This document shows positions 6,203 to 20,953 of a stretch of DNA of 64,000 nucleotides, piece by piece. A model generated the notes under the pieces. That model did not search any database, was not told where the DNA came from, and worked only from the letters and a program-made list of their open reading frames with translations. The position numbers and the translations under genes are program-made. Source of the stretch: Myxococcota bacterium (lineage in GTDB: Bacteria; Myxococcota; JAJVIH01); NCBI GenBank assembly GCA_022072125.1, contig JAJVIH010000047.1:1-64000 (forward strand), given 5' to 3'. Position 1 is the stretch's first letter. The number at the start of each line of letters is the position of its first letter.

Positions 6203-9200
6203 AGGCGCCCATTTTCAGGCGGTTGAGGGTATTGACCCGTTCGTTGGCGCCCGAATCGGACAGGGTCGGGTCCTTGGCCGGCAGCGAGGTGATTTGCAGG
6301 GACGGATTGGCCCGCACTTCCTGAACCCAGGTCAGCACATGGTGGTGCAGCATGGCCTTGGTGAACGGGTCATCCGCCCGCAGCAACTCCCAGACATGGG
6401 TGGGGGTTTTGGCCTCGAAGCCGCGGAAGACCATGCGTCCGGCGTTGTGAAACACCAGCGGCGCGAGCCGGGGATCATCCCGGCGCAGGGAGACAACCAG
6501 TTTCAGATCCTTGCGGAGGAAAAAAAACTTCTCGCGGATTTCCGGCGCCAGTTTTTCCCATTGAATTTCCCTGTACATATGCAGATAGAGGGCGACGGAC
6601 TCGCGGATGAACTGTTGCAGACCCTCCTCTGAAATCGCCTCGCCCTGGTTGTAGATGTCGGTTTGCAGCTCCAGCATGTCGGCGTGCCCGCCGCCGCCGC
6701 GCAGGGCGGTTTTCAGGTCCGCGTGGATGCGCTCCCTCACGCCGTCCGCGAACTGGCGGAGCAGCGCCTCGTCGGGGGCGGCCTGCAGGGAAGCCAGCTT
6801 GCTTTGGAGATCGCTGGGCAGGTTCAGGCTGAACGCCTGTCCGACATAACAGCGGAAGGGGAGCGTCAGCTTGTGGTTGCCGGTGCGGTTCTGGGTTTCC
6901 TTCAACAGCGCGTTGATGCGATCCATGACCGATGCGGCGCGGCCGGTGCCGCGCGCGGCTTCGTTGATCTTTTCCCCGATGGCCACGTTCACCTTGCCGA
7001 ACAGGGGGTCGAACATGCTCACCATCTCGGCGGCGGCGCCGAAACTGATGAACAGCCCCGACTCGATGCCAAAGCCCTTGATGGCCTTGATCTCCTGTTC
7101 GCGCAGGTCGTCAATGATCCGGAGTTGCGATTCAAACTGGACCCTCCGGGTATCGCAGTCCCGCAGAATGGCGTTCGCGTTTTCACTGAGAGTGGCCGCC
7201 CACTGCTGTATCAACGGCGCGGGGACGGCGTCTTGCAAAATGCCATCCACCTCCTGGTATTGCACCGCCAGTTTGCGCGCCTCGGCCTGCTTGAATTCGG
7301 CGCGGTGCTGGTACTCCATGGCCTTGGCGGGATCGGTTTCGGCCTGCGCCGCCTTCCGCATCAACGAACATTCCGCGAAGATCGACCGGCCCTTCTCCTG
7401 ATAATAGGCCTTGATGGCGGCGCCCAGTTCGTGAACCGGCATCTGGGAAAACCGGTCCGCCTCCGCCTGCGCCGCGCCCGCGGTGGCGTAGAGTTCGGCG
7501 AGGTCCCTTTCCAGCCTGGCCTTGCGCGCGTCAAATTCCTGGTTGACCCGCTTGATGGCCTCGTCGTCGGAGACCAGCGTGGAGCTCTGGTTCAGGCGTT
7601 CTTCATACTGGCGGGCGATCTGCTGGATATCGCGCGCCAGGTGGATCAGCGAAGTCACCGACCCCGCGAACAGGGCGGCGTCGCCGATCAGGTTGTTGAG
7701 TTGCACGTTGGGCGGACCGCCCGGCGTGGCGGAAGCGGCGTATTTCTTGGCCGCGGCGATGATGGGCTCGTAGAAGTTGGTTTTCAGGAAATCGGCCATC
7801 ACCACTTCCTTGGCCCGGAAGGTGCGCTTGGTGAAGCCTTTCAGGTCAATAAACAACTGGCCGGAGGTCTTCTCTTCCGCCTTTTTCAGCATCGGCAGGT
7901 TGTCATCGGCGATGCGGTACAGGCGCCCGCTTTCATATTCCTGGATGATCGCCTGAAGCCCGACGGTCTGCCGGCGGTTTTCGTAATGCTCCAGGCTGGA
8001 GACCGCGAGGCCGGTCATGTCCTGATCCAGCATGAACAGGACGCCGCGCTGGACGTGGCGCTCGATCAGTTCATCCTCGTTCGGACCCTTGCGGACCTTG
8101 AACAGGCCGCGGCTGTAGCTTTCCAGGAAGTCTTCCAGTTCGGAGAGCAGGACGCCGCGCTGGGCTTCAAAAATCTTGCCTTCCGCCTTCTCCCGTTCGG
8201 ACTTCACGAATTCGTGGAATTTGCCGAAATCCTTTCCTTCCAGCAGAAGTCCGGCGATCAGGTCCGATTCCTTCAGCAGGTCCGAGAGCTTGCGGTTGAA
8301 GTCCCACTGGAAATCGTTGAAGGACAGAAAGGGCAGCGCGCAATCACGAAATCCCGCCACGTGGGCGTCGCGGATGAATCCGGAGAACTCCTTTTTGCGC
8401 CCCTGGATCCCGCTCGCGGCGGCGCCAATGGCCTTGTCCACCTCGCGCGGGTTGATCTTCAGTTCGCGCAGCAGCTTTTCCAGCGACTCAACCGCTTCCT
8501 CCGAAATTCCATAGGGGTTGAGATCAAGCTGAACAATCTTGCGCCGGATGGCGACCAGCGTGGGGGGGGTGGTCACGGCGAACAGTTCGGCCTCCGTCTG
8601 GTTGATATCCAGCGGGGCGCGCCGCGCGGTCAGGGTGGTGGTGATGTCAATGGCCGCCGCTTCCAGCAGGGTCTGCAGGCAGTATCCCAGCGTCCGCTCG
8701 ACCTTTTCGTAGCTGAGGCCCTTGATGGGAACCCGCGAGTTGGCCTCCTTGTGCTGGGCCATCAGCTTCACCATGCTGATGTGGGCCAGATAGAGGTAGG
8801 GCGCGCCATCCTGCGTGGTGACCATCTGATTGGCCACGTGCGCGTAGAGTTTCTTGACCTCGGTCAGGAACGCCTTGCCCTGGCCTTCCGGACCCAGCCA
8901 GCAGTCCAGAATGGCGGCGTCCACGTGCGGATCGCCCGCGAGGATGCGCCGCGCCGCGTGGGCTTCCGCGGATTCTCCCGTGAAGTAGCGCAGTTCCATG
9001 GTGGCGGGCTTCAGCTTGGTCCTGAACGCCCAGGGGTATTTTTGCTCCAGGCTGTCGGGGGCGCCGTTGCGGCGGCCCAGCAACAGCACAAGCTGGGTGA
9101 CCACCCGCTGGCCCAGTTCCTCGTATTTGTCGGCGAGCGAATAGGGGATGCGCGCGTCCGCCAGGGATTCGCCGAGCCGGAAGGGAAACGCATCGGCGAA

Positions 9201-15616: not shown

Positions 15617-18442
15617 ATGACCATTCGCGCGCTGGCATTGTTCCTGGCCATTTCTGGAGTTCTGTCCCTGGGTGGCTGTGGCGGTGAAGCCACGGCGCCG
15701 CCGCCCGGCTCTCCGCCGGAAGAAGACGCTGGAGAAGGTCCCGGGGAGGACGCGGGTGAAAGCGACGCCAAGCCATCGGACGCGGGCGCCAAGGACGCCG
15801 CGAAAGACTCCGGGACCGGCAATGATGGCGGCAAGGACGCAGGCGCCGAAGACAAGGGGATCCCCGATACCGCGGAAGAAGACACCGCCGCCCCGGACAC
15901 CGGCAGACCTGACGCCGATGTTCCCGATACCGGTCCGGCGGACACCGCCCCGCCCGACAACGCCCCCGCCGACGTGGGCCCGCCGGACACCGGAACTCCC
16001 GACACCGCGCCGGCGGATACAGGCCCCGCCGATACGGGCTCCCAGGACACCGGAGCCACCACGCCGGGAAAAGGCGTTCCTCGTGTCACCATTGAGTTGC
16101 CGCGCCCGCGGTCATTCATCAAACGCGGCGCCGAACTGGATTTCCGCGGAACCGCCGAGGATGACGAAGACGGCATCATCACCGAGAATTTCCGCTACCG
16201 CTGGTCTTCCAGCGTGGATGGGCCCATCGGCATTGGCCGCGTGCTGCAAAAGGGCACGCTGGCGACCGTGGGCAGGCATACCATCACCCTGACGGTCGAG
16301 GACAGCGCGGGCAACAAGGGATCGGCTTCGGTGGATGTCACCGTCAGCGACAAGGTTCCGCCGGTGGTCAATATCATCAAGCCCGCGGATGGTTCGTTCG
16401 TGAAAGCGGGCGACGAGGTGAAATTCGAGGCCGACGTGACCGATCCCGAGGACCCCACGGCGGGCAGCGGCGCCTTTGGATATGAATGGATATCCTCCCT
16501 GGGAGACCAGTTGCCGGTGGGCAATGGCGTGATCGGCCGGCTGACCAGCATCGGCGTTCACACCATCACCCTGACGGTGACCAACAGCCGCGACAAACGC
16601 CAGGGCAGCGGATTCATCAGTCTGGAAGTGGGCACGGATTATCCGCCGGATGTCTATATCACCGCCCCGAAGGAGAACGCCCGCTTCTACTCAGGCGAGG
16701 AAGCCGCGCTGGAAGGCTTGGTCAAGGACGCCGAGGACGGCGACAACCCAGCCAATTACACCTACGTCTGGAGTTCCGACAAGGAAGGCGAACTGGGCAA
16801 ACAGCGCGTGCTCAAGGCGCCGCTCAAGACCGTTGGGGTCCAGACCCTGACCTTCAGCGTGACCGACGCCGCCAACCGCAAGCGGTCGAAAAGCATCAAG
16901 GTGGAGGTGCTGAACAACACGGCGCCCACCGCCAAGATCCTCAAACCGAAGGATGGGTCGCGGGTCAACCAGGGCGAGCCGGTGTTTTTTGAAGGCGAGG
17001 CCTCCGATCCGGAAGAGGGGCCGCTCAGCGGCGGCGCGCTCAAGTGGATCAGCGACAAGGCCGGTGAACTGGGCCGCGGGGCCACGGTCAGCGTGGCCAA
17101 CCTGCCCGCCGGCGTGAACAACATCAGCTTCGAGGCGACCGACCGCGGCAAGCTGAGCGCCCGCGCCCGCGTGGCGGTGGTCATCAACGGCGCGCCGGTG
17201 GTGAAGATCGTCAACCCGGCGGAGCCGAAGAAGGAAATCACGGAAGGACAAAACGTGGCCCTGTCGGGAACCGTTTCCGACGACGTGGATCAGGGCCTGA
17301 AGGGATCGTGGTTCACTTCCACCGCCGAGGCGCCCATCAAGGCGGGCGACAACAACGCCAGCTACAACAATGTCCCCGCCGGCAAACACCGCATCCTGTT
17401 CGAAGCGGTGGACAAGGAAAACGCGGTGGGCCGGGCGTATCTGGATGTCATCGCCAAAAAAGCCACGGGACAGCTCTACGAAACCTATTCCGGACTGCTG
17501 CAATCGGCCAGCTACCGGGATCACGCTTCGTGGACCAACGGCCAGATCCTGCTGGCCACGGACCAGGGCCTGTTCGAATTCAATCCGAACAACAGCAAGT
17601 TCTTCCTGAGCCAATTCAGCAACAGCGATCCGAAATCCATCAATTCCAACAACGTGCTGGCGATTGATGCGGTGGTGAAGAGCGGTCCGCTCGCCGGACC
17701 CTCGCTGTTCGTGGCGGGAACCTCGCAGGGCGCCTGGGTCTGCAAGGTCGCGGGAGATGGAACCTCCGATTGCGCCCGCATCTCGCAGGGCGCCGGTTCG
17801 CTGCCCAACAACGAGGTCCGGGCGGTGCGCGCGCGCGGCGATGAATTTCTCGCCGGAACGCCGGATGGGCTCGCGCTCATCAACGGCGCCCAGCAGAAAG
17901 TCACCAAAACCTGGACCAAGGCCCAGGGGCTCATCAGCAACACCGTCACCTCGCTGGCGCTGGACCCCCAGAACAACGCCTGGATCGGCACCGACGCGGG
18001 GCTGTGCAAGCTGACCTTCGCCGGCGCCGGGCAGCCGGAAAAATTCGACTGCTTCAGTTCGACCAGCACCAGCAACGGGTTGCCCTCGGACAAGATCAAC
18101 GCGGTGGCCCACGCCAACAACACGGTGTGGGTGGCCACGGATGAAGGCCTGACCCGTTATGATCCCGCGGCGGCGAACAACAAGTGGATGACCTTCACCA
18201 AGGACCTTCACGGCCTCCCCTCGGACAAAATCCGTTACCTGGAATCCGGTCCCGAGAAGGAAGTCTGGGCGGCCACCCCCTTCGGCGCCGCCCGCGTCAT
18301 GTTTGTCAACGGACGCCTGCACATGACCGTGTTCAACCGGGACGACCTCGCCAACGAAAACATCTTCATGATCCGGGCGGTGTCGGCCACCACCAAATGG
18401 TTCGGCACGGACAAGGGGCTCATCCGCTACAACGGCAAATAG
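15617..18442 (+). CDS. Lipoprotein with five Ig-like domains and a beta-propeller
   Basis: The 941-residue product has a lipobox (LSLGGC, Cys21), then an Asp/Gly/Pro/Thr stalk with PDTG/ADTG repeats to about residue 150. Five consecutive PKD/Ig-like modules of ~90 residues follow to about 620; each opens with a PxVxIxxP-type strand and closes with an HTITLTV-like strand. The C-terminal ~320 residues are a propeller with 'two-component regulator propeller'-like blades (NNEVRAVRARGDEFLAGTPD, TVTSLALDPQNNAWIGTDAG, DKIRYLESGPEKEVWAATPF). No kinase or output domain follows. It is probably anchored in the outer membrane and exposed to bind a ligand or partner. A strong terminator follows the stop. 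Confidence 0.88.
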   Translation: MTIRALALFLAISGVLSLGGCGGEATAPPPGSPPEEDAGEGPGEDAGESDAKPSDAGAKDAAKDSGTGNDGGKDAGAEDKGIPDTAEEDTAAPDTGRPDADVPDTGPADTAPPDNAPADVGPPDTGTPDTAPADTGPADTGSQDTGATTPGKGVPRVTIELPRPRSFIKRGAELDFRGTAEDDEDGIITENFRYRWSSSVDGPIGIGRVLQKGTLATVGRHTITLTVEDSAGNKGSASVDVTVSDKVPPVVNIIKPADGSFVKAGDEVKFEADVTDPEDPTAGSGAFGYEWISSLGDQLPVGNGVIGRLTSIGVHTITLTVTNSRDKRQGSGFISLEVGTDYPPDVYITAPKENARFYSGEEAALEGLVKDAEDGDNPANYTYVWSSDKEGELGKQRVLKAPLKTVGVQTLTFSVTDAANRKRSKSIKVEVLNNTAPTAKILKPKDGSRVNQGEPVFFEGEASDPEEGPLSGGALKWISDKAGELGRGATVSVANLPAGVNNISFEATDRGKLSARARVAVVINGAPVVKIVNPAEPKKEITEGQNVALSGTVSDDVDQGLKGSWFTSTAEAPIKAGDNNASYNNVPAGKHRILFEAVDKENAVGRAYLDVIAKKATGQLYETYSGLLQSASYRDHASWTNGQILLATDQGLFEFNPNNSKFFLSQFSNSDPKSINSNNVLAIDAVVKSGPLAGPSLFVAGTSQGAWVCKVAGDGTSDCARISQGAGSLPNNEVRAVRARGDEFLAGTPDGLALINGAQQKVTKTWTKAQGLISNTVTSLALDPQNNAWIGTDAGLCKLTFAGAGQPEKFDCFSSTSTSNGLPSDKINAVAHANNTVWVATDEGLTRYDPAAANNKWMTFTKDLHGLPSDKIRYLESGPEKEVWAATPFGAARVMFVNGRLHMTVFNRDDLANENIFMIRAVSATTKWFGTDKGLIRYNGK

Positions 18443-18465
18443 CCCGCGAATCCCATGGTCATCCG

Positions 18466-18500
18466 CCGGGACGGCTGGACTGGCCGTCCCGGTTTTTTTT
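18466..18500 (+). terminator. Strong Rho-independent terminator
   Basis: CCGGGACGGC (18466-18475) pairs perfectly with GCCGTCCCGG (18483-18492) over a 7-nt loop and is followed by eight T (18493-18500). It ends the Ig/propeller lipoprotein transcript and separates it from the convergent DUF692 cassette. Confidence 0.93.
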
Positions 18501-18517: not shown

Positions 18518-18730
18518 TCAGGCAGGCGGAGGTTTCCGGGGATCTGCTTCCTGTTTGGGTTCGCCGCGCGCGGCGGCGGTTTCCGCGCGGTGTTTCAACA
18601 CCTGCCGGACCGCTTCGATCCGCGCGGGATCAAATCCCGGCGGCGGAGGCGCGCCGCGCAACAGCGCGCGCAGCAGGATGGCGTGCCGTTCCTCCAGGCG
18701 GGCCCGGCGTGGATCGTGTTCAGGCGGCAT
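18518..18730 (-). CDS. Small SCO6045-like partner of the DUF692 enzyme
   Basis: This 70-residue protein starts inside the end of the DUF692 gene (11-nt overlap), with GGGAG about 8 nt before its ATG. Residues 11-50 (LEERHAILLRALLRGAPPPP, then GFDPARIEAVRQVL) resemble, from memory, the short helical domain of SCO6045-like proteins that accompanies or is fused to DUF692 enzymes. The usual longer C-terminal part is missing, replaced by a Lys/Pro/Glu-rich tail. DUF692 enzymes such as MbnB and TglH need a small partner (MbnC, TglI) for substrate recognition; this gene is the natural candidate here. The family call is tentative, but the coupled position is clear. Confidence 0.7.
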   Translation of the reverse strand: MPPEHDPRRARLEERHAILLRALLRGAPPPPGFDPARIEAVRQVLKHRAETAAARGEPKQEADPRKPPPA

Positions 18731-19550
18731 GGGCGTGTCTCCCGGCCTGCTCCAGCACGGCCCGGATGCTGGCCAGTTCCGATTGCAGTTCGTCCGCGGT
18801 GGTGAAATTGGCGTCCCGCTCCAGGATCACCACGGGAGGCGTGACGCGCTTCGCCAGCAGCTTCAGCAGTTCCAGCGATGTATGACCGAGCGGATGGGCG
18901 TGCGTGTCGTGCCACAGCCCGCCGCGCAGGTGTCCGCCCGCCATATGCGTGCTGCGCAGGCGGCGGAGCGGCAGGCGATCCAGATATTCCGCCGCGTTCC
19001 ATCCGTGGTTGACGGTCCCCGCGTGCAGGTTCGACAAATCCAGCAGCAGACCGCAGTCCGTGCGCTCCAGCAGTTCATGCAGAAACGACGGCTCGTCCAT
19101 CTCCGGATCGGGCCATTCCACCAGGGACGCGATATTTTCCAGCGCCAGCGGAACCGGAAGCGCGCGCCGGGCCATCAGCACGTTTTCGATCAGGATATCC
19201 AGTTGCTCGCGCGTGCGCGGCAGCGGCAGCAGATGCCCGGAATCGAGTCCGCCCGCGCGCACCAGCGCCACATGCTCGCTGACAAAGGGCGCCTCCAGAA
19301 GCTCCACGACCCTCGCCAAGTGATCCAGCCTGCGCCTGTCCGGCGGCTGCGCCCCACCCAACGACAGCGAGAGCCCATGCACGAGGATGGTCATGCCGCG
19401 GCCGCGCAACTCCATCAGCGCGGGAGGAGGATGATCCGGATTCACATTCTCCGCGATGACCTCGGTGACGCCGATCTCCGGCGAACTGGCCAGCAGCCAG
19501 GCCGTCTCGGGCCGCCAGGACAGCCCCACCGCCGGCGCGGGAGAACTCAA
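18720..19550 (-). CDS. DUF692 (MbnB/TglH-type) multinuclear iron enzyme
   Basis: The product (276 residues from TTG 19550) shows the whole DUF692 TIM-barrel pattern: HGLSLSLGG (His58), VSEHVAL (His93), HLLPLPRT, LALENIASL (Glu138), CGLLLDLSNLHAG (Asp171, Asn174), THMAGGH (His202), HDTHAHP (His214-His217) and VILERD (Glu244). Characterised relatives use two or three irons and O2 to rebuild Cys residues in peptides, for example the methanobactin oxazolone/thioamide made by MbnB and the Cys beta-carbon excision by TglH. I chose TTG 19550 because GGAGG lies 6 nt upstream and the TTGA overlaps the stop of the upstream gene. A GTG at 19586 would add 12 Arg/Trp-rich residues translated from the tail codons of the upstream gene. 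The cassette context suggests it modifies the upstream protein's Cys tail. Confidence 0.88.
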   Translation of the reverse strand: MSSPAPAVGLSWRPETAWLLASSPEIGVTEVIAENVNPDHPPPALMELRGRGMTILVHGLSLSLGGAQPPDRRRLDHLARVVELLEAPFVSEHVALVRAGGLDSGHLLPLPRTREQLDILIENVLMARRALPVPLALENIASLVEWPDPEMDEPSFLHELLERTDCGLLLDLSNLHAGTVNHGWNAAEYLDRLPLRRLRSTHMAGGHLRGGLWHDTHAHPLGHTSLELLKLLAKRVTPPVVILERDANFTTADELQSELASIRAVLEQAGRHAHAA

Positions 19551-20500
19551 TCCCCGCCTCCGCAACCACCCCCACAGCCGCCGCACCCCGAACTGCCGCT
19601 ATCGCCGCCGCTGTCTCCGCCGGAACTGGAGCCGCAACTGCTGCCCGTGCTGCTAGCGGAGGAGTTGTCCAACGTCCGCTGCTGTTGAGGATGCATATAT
19701 CCGCCCAACCGCTCGAACATCAGCGGCATGGAGGCCGCGAAGATGGCGGGTCCGAATAACCCCGCCGCCAGCGCCATGTCATTGGCCGATAACATGGAGG
19801 GTTTGGTCTCCGCGGTGGTTTTCAGGGATTTCAACCCGCTGCTCCAGCGCCGCAGTTCCTTTTCCAGCCTGCCGGGCATGCCCACGGCGGAACGCCGCAG
19901 AAACAGCATCAGACAGAAGGCGATGAAGGCGAGCGCCGCCAAAAAGCCGACCGGCTTGTCGCGCTCGACCCCCACGATGATTTTCAGCACCCCCGCGATG
20001 ACCACGGGCGCGAAGATCGCCGTGGCCGCCCAGGCGGCGGCTCTGCTTTTGGCCGGAGAAACCCAATAACCTTTTTCCATCAGTCCCTGGAGCAGCCGCG
20101 TGTTGTGATTGGCCACGTGAACGATGATTTTGTTCACGTCCAGTCCCTCTGGCTCCCGGAGCAAGCGGTTGTGGATATCAAGTTCCAGGTAGTGGGCGCC
20201 GCCATGGGGCGCTCGCGGCCCTTTGCGGATGACTTCCTCTCCCTCCTTCGCTTCCGCCATGCCGGCATGGGTCATACCGGCCATCAACGCCTGGGCCAGC
20301 CCCGGCGATCCACGCAACAACCAGGCGGCTTCGTAAGGCGACAGCCGGGAGACGCCCGAACCGTCCGCCGATCCGGCCTCGACGATCTTGTTGCGGATGT
20401 AGCGGGCGGCCAGGAATCCAATGATCAGCGAGCAGATGTACAACTGGAGAAAAACGGGGCCCGGCAGGTCAAAGGGAAAGGCGGGAAGCAGTCCGTCCAC
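19547..20500 (-). CDS. TIGR04222-like membrane protein with Cys/Gly-rich C-terminal tail
   Basis: The 317-residue protein begins FPFDLPGPVFLQLY after about 8 residues. It has one N-terminal membrane span, then a soluble segment with LSPYEAAWLLRG, which resembles the TIGR04222 domain. Two spans follow (about 154-176 and 184-202), with a weaker hydrophobic stretch near 244-260. The last ~40 residues are Ser/Gly-rich with four Cys: SSCGSSSGG, then SSGCGGCGGGCGGGD at the very end. As I recall, TIGR04222 proteins commonly end in such tails and sit next to DUF692 genes. GTG 20500 is preferred because AGAGGA lies 5 nt before it and it gives a family-like N-terminus; an upstream GTG at 20533 is possible. 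It is probably the substrate or scaffold of the DUF692 enzyme. Confidence 0.82.
   Translation of the reverse strand: MDGLLPAFPFDLPGPVFLQLYICSLIIGFLAARYIRNKIVEAGSADGSGVSRLSPYEAAWLLRGSPGLAQALMAGMTHAGMAEAKEGEEVIRKGPRAPHGGAHYLELDIHNRLLREPEGLDVNKIIVHVANHNTRLLQGLMEKGYWVSPAKSRAAAWAATAIFAPVVIAGVLKIIVGVERDKPVGFLAALAFIAFCLMLFLRRSAVGMPGRLEKELRRWSSGLKSLKTTAETKPSMLSANDMALAAGLFGPAIFAASMPLMFERLGGYMHPQQQRTLDNSSASSTGSSCGSSSGGDSGGDSGSSGCGGCGGGCGGGD
19557..19561 (-). promoter_or_regulatory. Ribosome binding site deciding the DUF692 start
   Basis: GGAGG on the minus strand lies 6 nt upstream of TTG 19550. It is embedded in the Gly codons of the membrane protein's tail. The TTG overlaps the upstream TGA (TTGA, 19550-19547), which indicates coupled translation. 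Confidence 0.6.
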
Positions 20501-20953
20501 GGGGGTCCTCTTGCGGGGCAAGACCTTCCCCACCGCCGCGGCGCGCAGGGGGTTGGTTGTTGGATTTATTCATCATAGGAGATGCGGCCGCTCCCTGCCA
20601 ACCAGGGCGGGGGATATCGCCATTTCCCGGTTTTGCAATGGGGCGGCGCCAACAGGATCGGTATTGCTTTCACGCCGGGATTGTGAATCCGGCCATTCCC
20701 TTCCGCGTATTCACCGCCGCTTCACGCCCCTTTTCTTGATCGCATGCCGCGAACCTTCTCCCTCTCCACTCGATTGCCTGCGCAACCGGGGGGGAGCGGC
20801 GAGGCGTGGCCGCACCGGATGATTTCGCGGAACCGCCGCGCGGCGAACCGGACGGGCTTCGTTTTCGCCGCCGCGCTCATGCCATCCCGGGGTATCCGCC
20901 GGTTGACGTATGCGTGTTGATCCTGGAACCCGAAAGGACTACAACGCCCCGCC
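20501..20953. other. Divergent intergenic region, no gene seen
   Basis: About 450 bp lie between the divergent DUF692 cassette and the kinase gene. It should carry promoters for both directions, but I see no convincing -35/-10 pair. It contains a repeat-like block at about 20734-20795. No open frame here looks coding. Confidence 0.55.
20734..20795 (+). repeat. Interspersed repeat-like block, copy C
   Basis: TCTTGATCGC (20734-20743), CTTCTCCCTCTCC and TTGCCTGCGCAAC followed by a G-run recall blocks in the intergenic regions at 5921-5962 and 61175-61260, but the order differs. The CCCTCTCC and GGGGGGGAG parts could pair as an imperfect hairpin. Confidence 0.3.

Follow-up and report, generated by a model that had tools for sequence, protein, structure and literature searches.

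In a stretch of 64,000 nucleotides from a Myxococcota genome, hereafter called the window, the gene of a membrane protein with a Cys/Gly-rich tail overlaps the gene of a DUF692/MNIO enzyme, and the question raised by this locus is whether the tail is the substrate of the enzyme. The operon belongs to an association already published, the proposal of the tail as substrate included: according to the main text of Antoine et al. 2025 (PMC12452194), genes for TIGR04222 proteins often adjoin MNIO genes, and many of these proteins have Ser/Gly-rich, Cys-bearing C-terminal tails and are possible MNIO substrates. As given there, TIGR04222 proteins account for about 40% of those candidate MNIO substrates in the survey that have no signal peptide, C-proximal Cys are missing in more than a quarter of TIGR04222 proteins, about a third of the genomes with a TIGR04222 gene have no MNIO, and the partners of the associated MNIOs are called 'PME-type 2'. 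The tail is considered likely to be periplasmic, as read from AlphaFold-based topologies of two members of the family. The Cys-Gly rule, the enzyme-partner fusion, the predicted cytoplasmic location of the tail, the co-occurrence in Streptomycetaceae and the truncated window partner, all described below, are not found in that main text. Literature searches found neither later work on TIGR04222 nor tests of any TIGR04222 protein as MNIO substrate.

The operon and its three products

Three minus-strand genes, overlapping head to tail, encode from 5' to 3' the membrane protein, here called T, the DUF692/MNIO enzyme and a partner (Table 1). A preliminary description, made from the window alone, had reported a three-gene DUF692 cassette with a Cys/Gly-tailed membrane protein, which is borne out by ORFs, profile matches and the gene order in 28 further loci; the gene starts given there, within the stop codon of T for the enzyme and inside the enzyme gene for the partner, agree with those found here. 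The enzyme start is probably the TTG at 19550, which overlaps the stop codon of T in a junction reading GAT-TGA, with probable translational coupling. A divergent kinase gene lies in front of the operon. The plus-strand gene converging on it (15617-18442) encodes a lipoprotein-like protein with an Asp/Thr/Pro-rich linker, several PKD/Ig domains and regulator-propeller repeats; no other Cys-rich neighbour was seen beside the operon within the window.

Table 1. Features of the operon, in window coordinates
Feature	Position	Strand	Evidence and remarks
TIGR04222-domain membrane protein (T)	19547..20533	-	328 aa; NCBIfam TIGR04222 E 5.5e-29; AlphaFold model
T, alternative start	20500	-	GTG; start used in the preliminary description
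TM segment 1 of T, residues 25-43	20405..20461	-	hydropathy; in 97% of 69 homologues; helix 25-53 in model
TM segment 2 of T, residues 171-189	19967..20023	-	hydropathy; in 93% of 69 homologues; model
TM segment 3 of T, residues 194-212, then strongly basic stretch	19898..19954	-	hydropathy; in 100% of 69 homologues; model
Disordered Gly/Ser/Cys/Asp tail of T, residues 288-328, proposed MNIO substrate	19550..19672	-	low pLDDT, composition, Cys-Gly rule, codon use
DUF692/MNIO enzyme, longest ORF	18720..19586	-	PF05114 240.8 bits; ligand-type residues invariant
Partner, 70 aa	18518..18730	-	start within enzyme gene; alignment to homologues
Terminator hairpin, strong	18465..18493	+	13 pairs and T run; between converging plus-strand gene and operon
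Sigma-70-like promoter match upstream of T	20572..20601	-	weak; 1 found, 0.5 expected by chance

The score of the enzyme against PF05114, for which the gathering score is 25, places it in the MNIO (DUF692) superfamily. Ten ligand-type residues (H70, H105, E150, N151, D183, N186, H214, D227, H229 and E256) are invariant in an alignment of 22 MNIOs and match those of TglH when aligned to PDB 8hci, in agreement with the full His/Asp/Glu/Asn set noted earlier. The enzyme scores below the cut-off of every curated MNIO equivalog matched (bits/cut-off: BufB 180/310; HvfB 138/360; ApyH 110/400; MbnB 49/325; ChrH 49/600), the nearest being the bufferin maturase BufB. In the model of a fused MNIO-partner homologue, the MNIO domain matches TglH and MbnB, the best PDB match being TglH (8hci, 8hi7).

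Taken alone, the window partner has no family match, DUF2063 of Pfam included, and aligns solely with the N-terminal part of homologues of about 155 aa, at 33-43% identity. By these alignments, it appears to be a truncated member, corresponding to the N-terminal part, of the DUF2063-like (PME-type 2) partner family. Profile-profile comparison of the family with DUF2063 gave a weak match (E 2.1e-5, probability 53); comparison of the partner alignment with the single DUF2063 protein of the window genome gave nothing, and no PDB relatives were found by sequence profile. In the fused homologue model the partner domain is all-helical, and most of even this helical domain is missing from the window partner. 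The partner is linked to the enzyme by the many Streptomyces in which the two are fused into a single protein; with duplicates counted, the set contains 63 such ORFs.

T scores 101.4 bits against the TIGR04222 domain (cut-off 43) and is a member of the family. Averaged over the 69 homologues, the net charge amounts to +1.4 at one end and +2.0 at the other end of the loop between TM segments 1 and 2, +0.2 in the hairpin and +3.8 after the third segment. In the AlphaFold model of T, with a mean pLDDT of 84.8, a fourth hydrophobic stretch is broken into several short helices, and residues from about 285 onward are disordered, with low pLDDT. The charge pattern and the model together lead to a predicted N-out/three TM/C-in topology, in which the tail faces the cytoplasm; this prediction contradicts the periplasmic placement in PMC12452194 and argues that the tail would lie within reach of the cytoplasmic enzyme. 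On the same grounds the orientation implied by a 'membrane-displayed' group, as the preliminary description had it, is probably wrong. It is considered unlikely that the tail is an MNIO substrate but periplasmic, modified before or during membrane insertion, as would follow from Antoine et al. The published topology reading favours this possibility, and bufferins are likewise exported after modification; against it, positive charges flank both the large loop and the region after the third TM segment in the 69 homologues, the model shows a fourth hydrophobic segment with a kink and of little length, and the cytoplasmic enzyme would need to act before the C-terminal tail crosses.

Comparison of the T fold with the PDB gave no match at E <= 0.001. 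A T homologue from another locus (L140:4053-4952) has a weak match to DUF2207_C (PF20990; E 0.011, below the curated cut-off), which hints at the origin of the TIGR04222 domain and is a point of likeness to the DUF2207_C membrane proteins, which are not known to be linked to MNIOs.

Composition rules in the Cys/Gly tail

T ends in ...GSSGCGGCGGGCGGGD, a tail with four Cys and a C-terminal Asp. Among homologues the tails are repetitive, Gly/Ser-rich and of varying length. In 127 distinct tails, Cys is followed by Gly in 601 of 724 cases (83%), as compared to 289 +/- 12, with a maximum of 322, after shuffling, and by Ser in 101. Cys-Cys was not found among the 724 tail Cys (63 expected), so that each of them is isolated, and Cys is never the last residue (14 such tails expected). 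The tail Cys had been placed near the terminus in the preliminary description, which is correct as to proximity, but no tail ends in Cys. TglH works on a C-terminal Cys; chemistry of this type was ruled out, since none of the tails has one.

Tail Ser is encoded by both AGY and TCN codons, Gly by all four of its codons and Cys by both TGC and TGT; the use of both Ser codon blocks and of four Gly codons indicates selection at the protein level. The repetitive, Gly/Ser-rich and length-variable character of the tails would also be expected of a neutral, functionless low-complexity sequence produced by GGC/TGC/AGC slippage. Such an origin is extremely improbable and was rejected on the mixed codons for Ser, Gly and Cys and on the dipeptide rule, with no Cys-Cys, no C-terminal Cys and Cys-Gly at twice the expectation.

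For FonB/FonC, which form 5-thiooxazoles, analysis of position-5 variants showed that after Cys only Gly or Ala is accepted, and that Ala, Arg or Thr before Cys is tolerated (PMC12668002). The T tails fit the flank rule of 5-thiooxazole-forming MNIOs. The Cys-Gly rule is identical in tails without a neighbouring MNIO and is thus not specific to MNIO neighbours; for this reason it supports the chemistry only when combined with the operon. Variant actinomycete tails (GGTSCASPQGARAGSCGGTADGCG) were observed at loci L282, L283, L286 and L288, where the MNIO gene is flanked on its other side by an additional Cys-rich ORF.

After the last Cys, the tail ends in Asp in the window and in 24 of the 28 further loci of the phylum, and in Ser in the other four. 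The prevalence of Asp bears on the possibility that the tail is the substrate of another chemistry or at another target, either with Cys being converted to oxazolone/thioamide or with the C-terminal Asp being oxidised in the manner of ApyH. GAT-TGA is in fact the commonest end of T genes followed by an MNIO gene (24 cases), though GGA-TGA would give a better ATG start, and the enzyme does match the ApyH profile, with 110 bits. Most actinomycete tails, however, have no C-terminal Asp, all curated MNIO profiles score below cut-off, with BufB above ApyH, and GAT may be there only to provide the TTG start that overlaps it; a different chemistry or target is regarded as distinctly unlikely.

Distribution of Cys tails and MNIO genes

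In a sample of 195 Myxococcota genomes, TIGR04222 was detected above cut-off in 32 and MNIO in 126. T adjoins MNIO, in the order T-MNIO-partner, at the 28 loci mentioned above; all of these T proteins bear a Cys tail, and the partner is present at 26 loci. One genome of the phylum (G055, 98% complete) encodes a Cys-tailed T, at locus L065, and has no MNIO match. At two further loci (L037:4311-5729 and L045:4962-6335) a Cys-tailed T is directly followed by the partner with no adjacent MNIO, the respective genomes carrying a T-MNIO pair elsewhere (L039 and L048). The window genome contains a second MNIO locus (L071, G000:C8:25000-40000; positions 6272-8209, minus strand), where an MNIO and a DUF2063 partner are encoded together with a precursor that is secreted and has KKCG/KECG repeats. 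This set is captophorin/oxazolin-like, and two MNIO systems thus coexist in the genome.

Outside the phylum, named genomes and samples of Streptomycetaceae and Planctomycetota were scanned, and the system was found in Streptomyces, Kitasatospora, Actinophytocola, Singulisphaera and other planctomycetes, and in an Obscuribacterales MAG. The order T-MNIO-partner is kept in the planctomycete, the Obscuribacterales and some actinomycete loci, and most Streptomyces have MNIO-partner-T. Nearby, Streptomyces often has another TIGR04222 paralogue, without a tail, as well as DUF4142 proteins. Loci L074, L101 and similar ones in Streptomyces encode MNIO-partner fusions with intact ligand residues and have either a tail-less TIGR04222 protein or none nearby. 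In Parafrankia colletiae, a 452-aa protein (L073:3547-4905) with no TIGR04222 match and with a Cys/Gly tail ending in Cys is encoded just upstream of an MNIO-partner fusion and may be a different carrier.

The 71 Streptomycetaceae genomes comprise 33 with MNIO and Cys-tailed T, 15 with MNIO only, none with Cys-tailed T only and 23 with neither (Fisher 8.6e-9); for those with any TIGR04222 protein the figures, in the same order, are 33, 11, 0 and 11 (Fisher 5.9e-6), both p-values being too small because the genomes are related. Only 14 changes of the Cys tail occur on a tree of 223 T domains, and an independent-pairs test at the gene level, correcting for the tree, gave no significant association of Cys tail with MNIO adjacency (median p 0.5, few changes). 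Where MNIO occurs without a Cys-tailed T (15 of the 48 MNIO-bearing Streptomycetaceae genomes), the fused enzymes keep their ligand residues, so that some other substrate or role must exist for this lineage of enzymes. Streptomyces bauhiniae is an example of a species with the fused enzyme and no Cys-tailed T. Conservation of the MNIO gene without Cys in the tail, which the preliminary description had taken as an argument against its own proposal, is hence found in this Streptomycetaceae lineage and not in the phylum of the window. When neighbours of the MNIO-partner fusions were clustered in search of another substrate, antisense frames merged into one giant cluster.

The role of the tail Cys as MNIO substrate, proposed in the preliminary description, is supported by the conserved operon, the enzyme-partner fusion, the Cys-Gly pattern and the fact that Streptomycetaceae lacking an MNIO have no Cys tails, and is weakened by the 15 genomes just described. 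The opposite reading, by which T is not a substrate, its Cys tail binding metal or iron-sulphur or serving, with its thiols free, to dock the enzyme, and the target of the MNIO-partner pair is a different protein, is fairly unlikely. It would account for the fusions found without any Cys-tailed T, for the Cys-tailed T of G055, for T and partner at L037 and L045 without an adjacent MNIO and for the non-significant tree-corrected test, but leaves aside the absence of Cys tails from MNIO-less Streptomycetaceae, the tight overlap of the T and enzyme genes and the lack of any other Cys-rich candidate among the operon's neighbours in the window.

Proposed model and comparison with known systems

In the model preferred here, T is a small integral membrane protein with a disordered C-terminal tail that reaches into the cytoplasm; the Cys of this tail, every one of them lying in a [Ser/Gly]-Cys-[Gly/Ser] site, would be oxidised in situ by the MNIO and its DUF2063-like partner. 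By analogy with captophorins and bufferins, the product would most likely be 5-thiooxazoles, each Cys losing 4 Da, and the result would be a membrane-tethered metal-binding strand, probably for copper, and not an excised peptide. Modification of the tail, its kind and its role in metal binding are what we infer from the data; taken as a whole, from the cytoplasmic tail to 5-thiooxazole-type modification by MNIO and partner and metal binding, the model is tentative, its probability being put a little below one half. A more specific version, in which an uncleaved, cytoplasm-facing 5-thiooxazole array on a polytopic protein would form a metal-binding brush on the inner membrane face, made with a minimal RRE-less partner, is rather unlikely. 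Modification of the tail in place, if it occurs, would carry MNIO chemistry beyond secreted peptides into membrane proteins and would provide membrane-bound metal ligands of a new kind; those Streptomyces that have an MNIO but no Cys tail point to substrates still unrecognised.

Among known systems, the TIGR04222-MNIO clusters of Antoine et al., as described in their main text, share with the window operon the membrane family, the enzyme superfamily, the Cys/Gly/Ser tails and, as far as the weak DUF2063 match of the partner family indicates, the PME-type 2 kind of partner. With its C-proximal Cys tail and adjacent MNIO gene, the window operon falls within the candidate substrate subset described there. 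It differs from those clusters in the tail, placed in the periplasm there and predicted to be cytoplasmic here, and in the partner, which in the window has only 70 aa.

The captophorin and bufferin systems (FonABC, HvfABC, BufABC) resemble the window operon in combining an MNIO with a partner that is of DUF2063 type or, in the window, probably so, and in having several Cys placed before a small residue. Their precursors are small and secreted, with a Sec signal peptide, whereas T is polytopic and does not belong to this class. Their partners are PME1 (DUF2063-RRE) proteins, and the window partner, truncated and with no DUF2063 Pfam match, differs from the RRE-bearing PME1 partners used by known 5-thiooxazole enzymes, a difference that speaks against the proposed model. 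TglHI of Pseudomonas syringae and MbnBC have in common with the window enzyme the TIM-barrel iron enzyme fold and the ligand-type residues, but differ from the operon in gene context and substrates.
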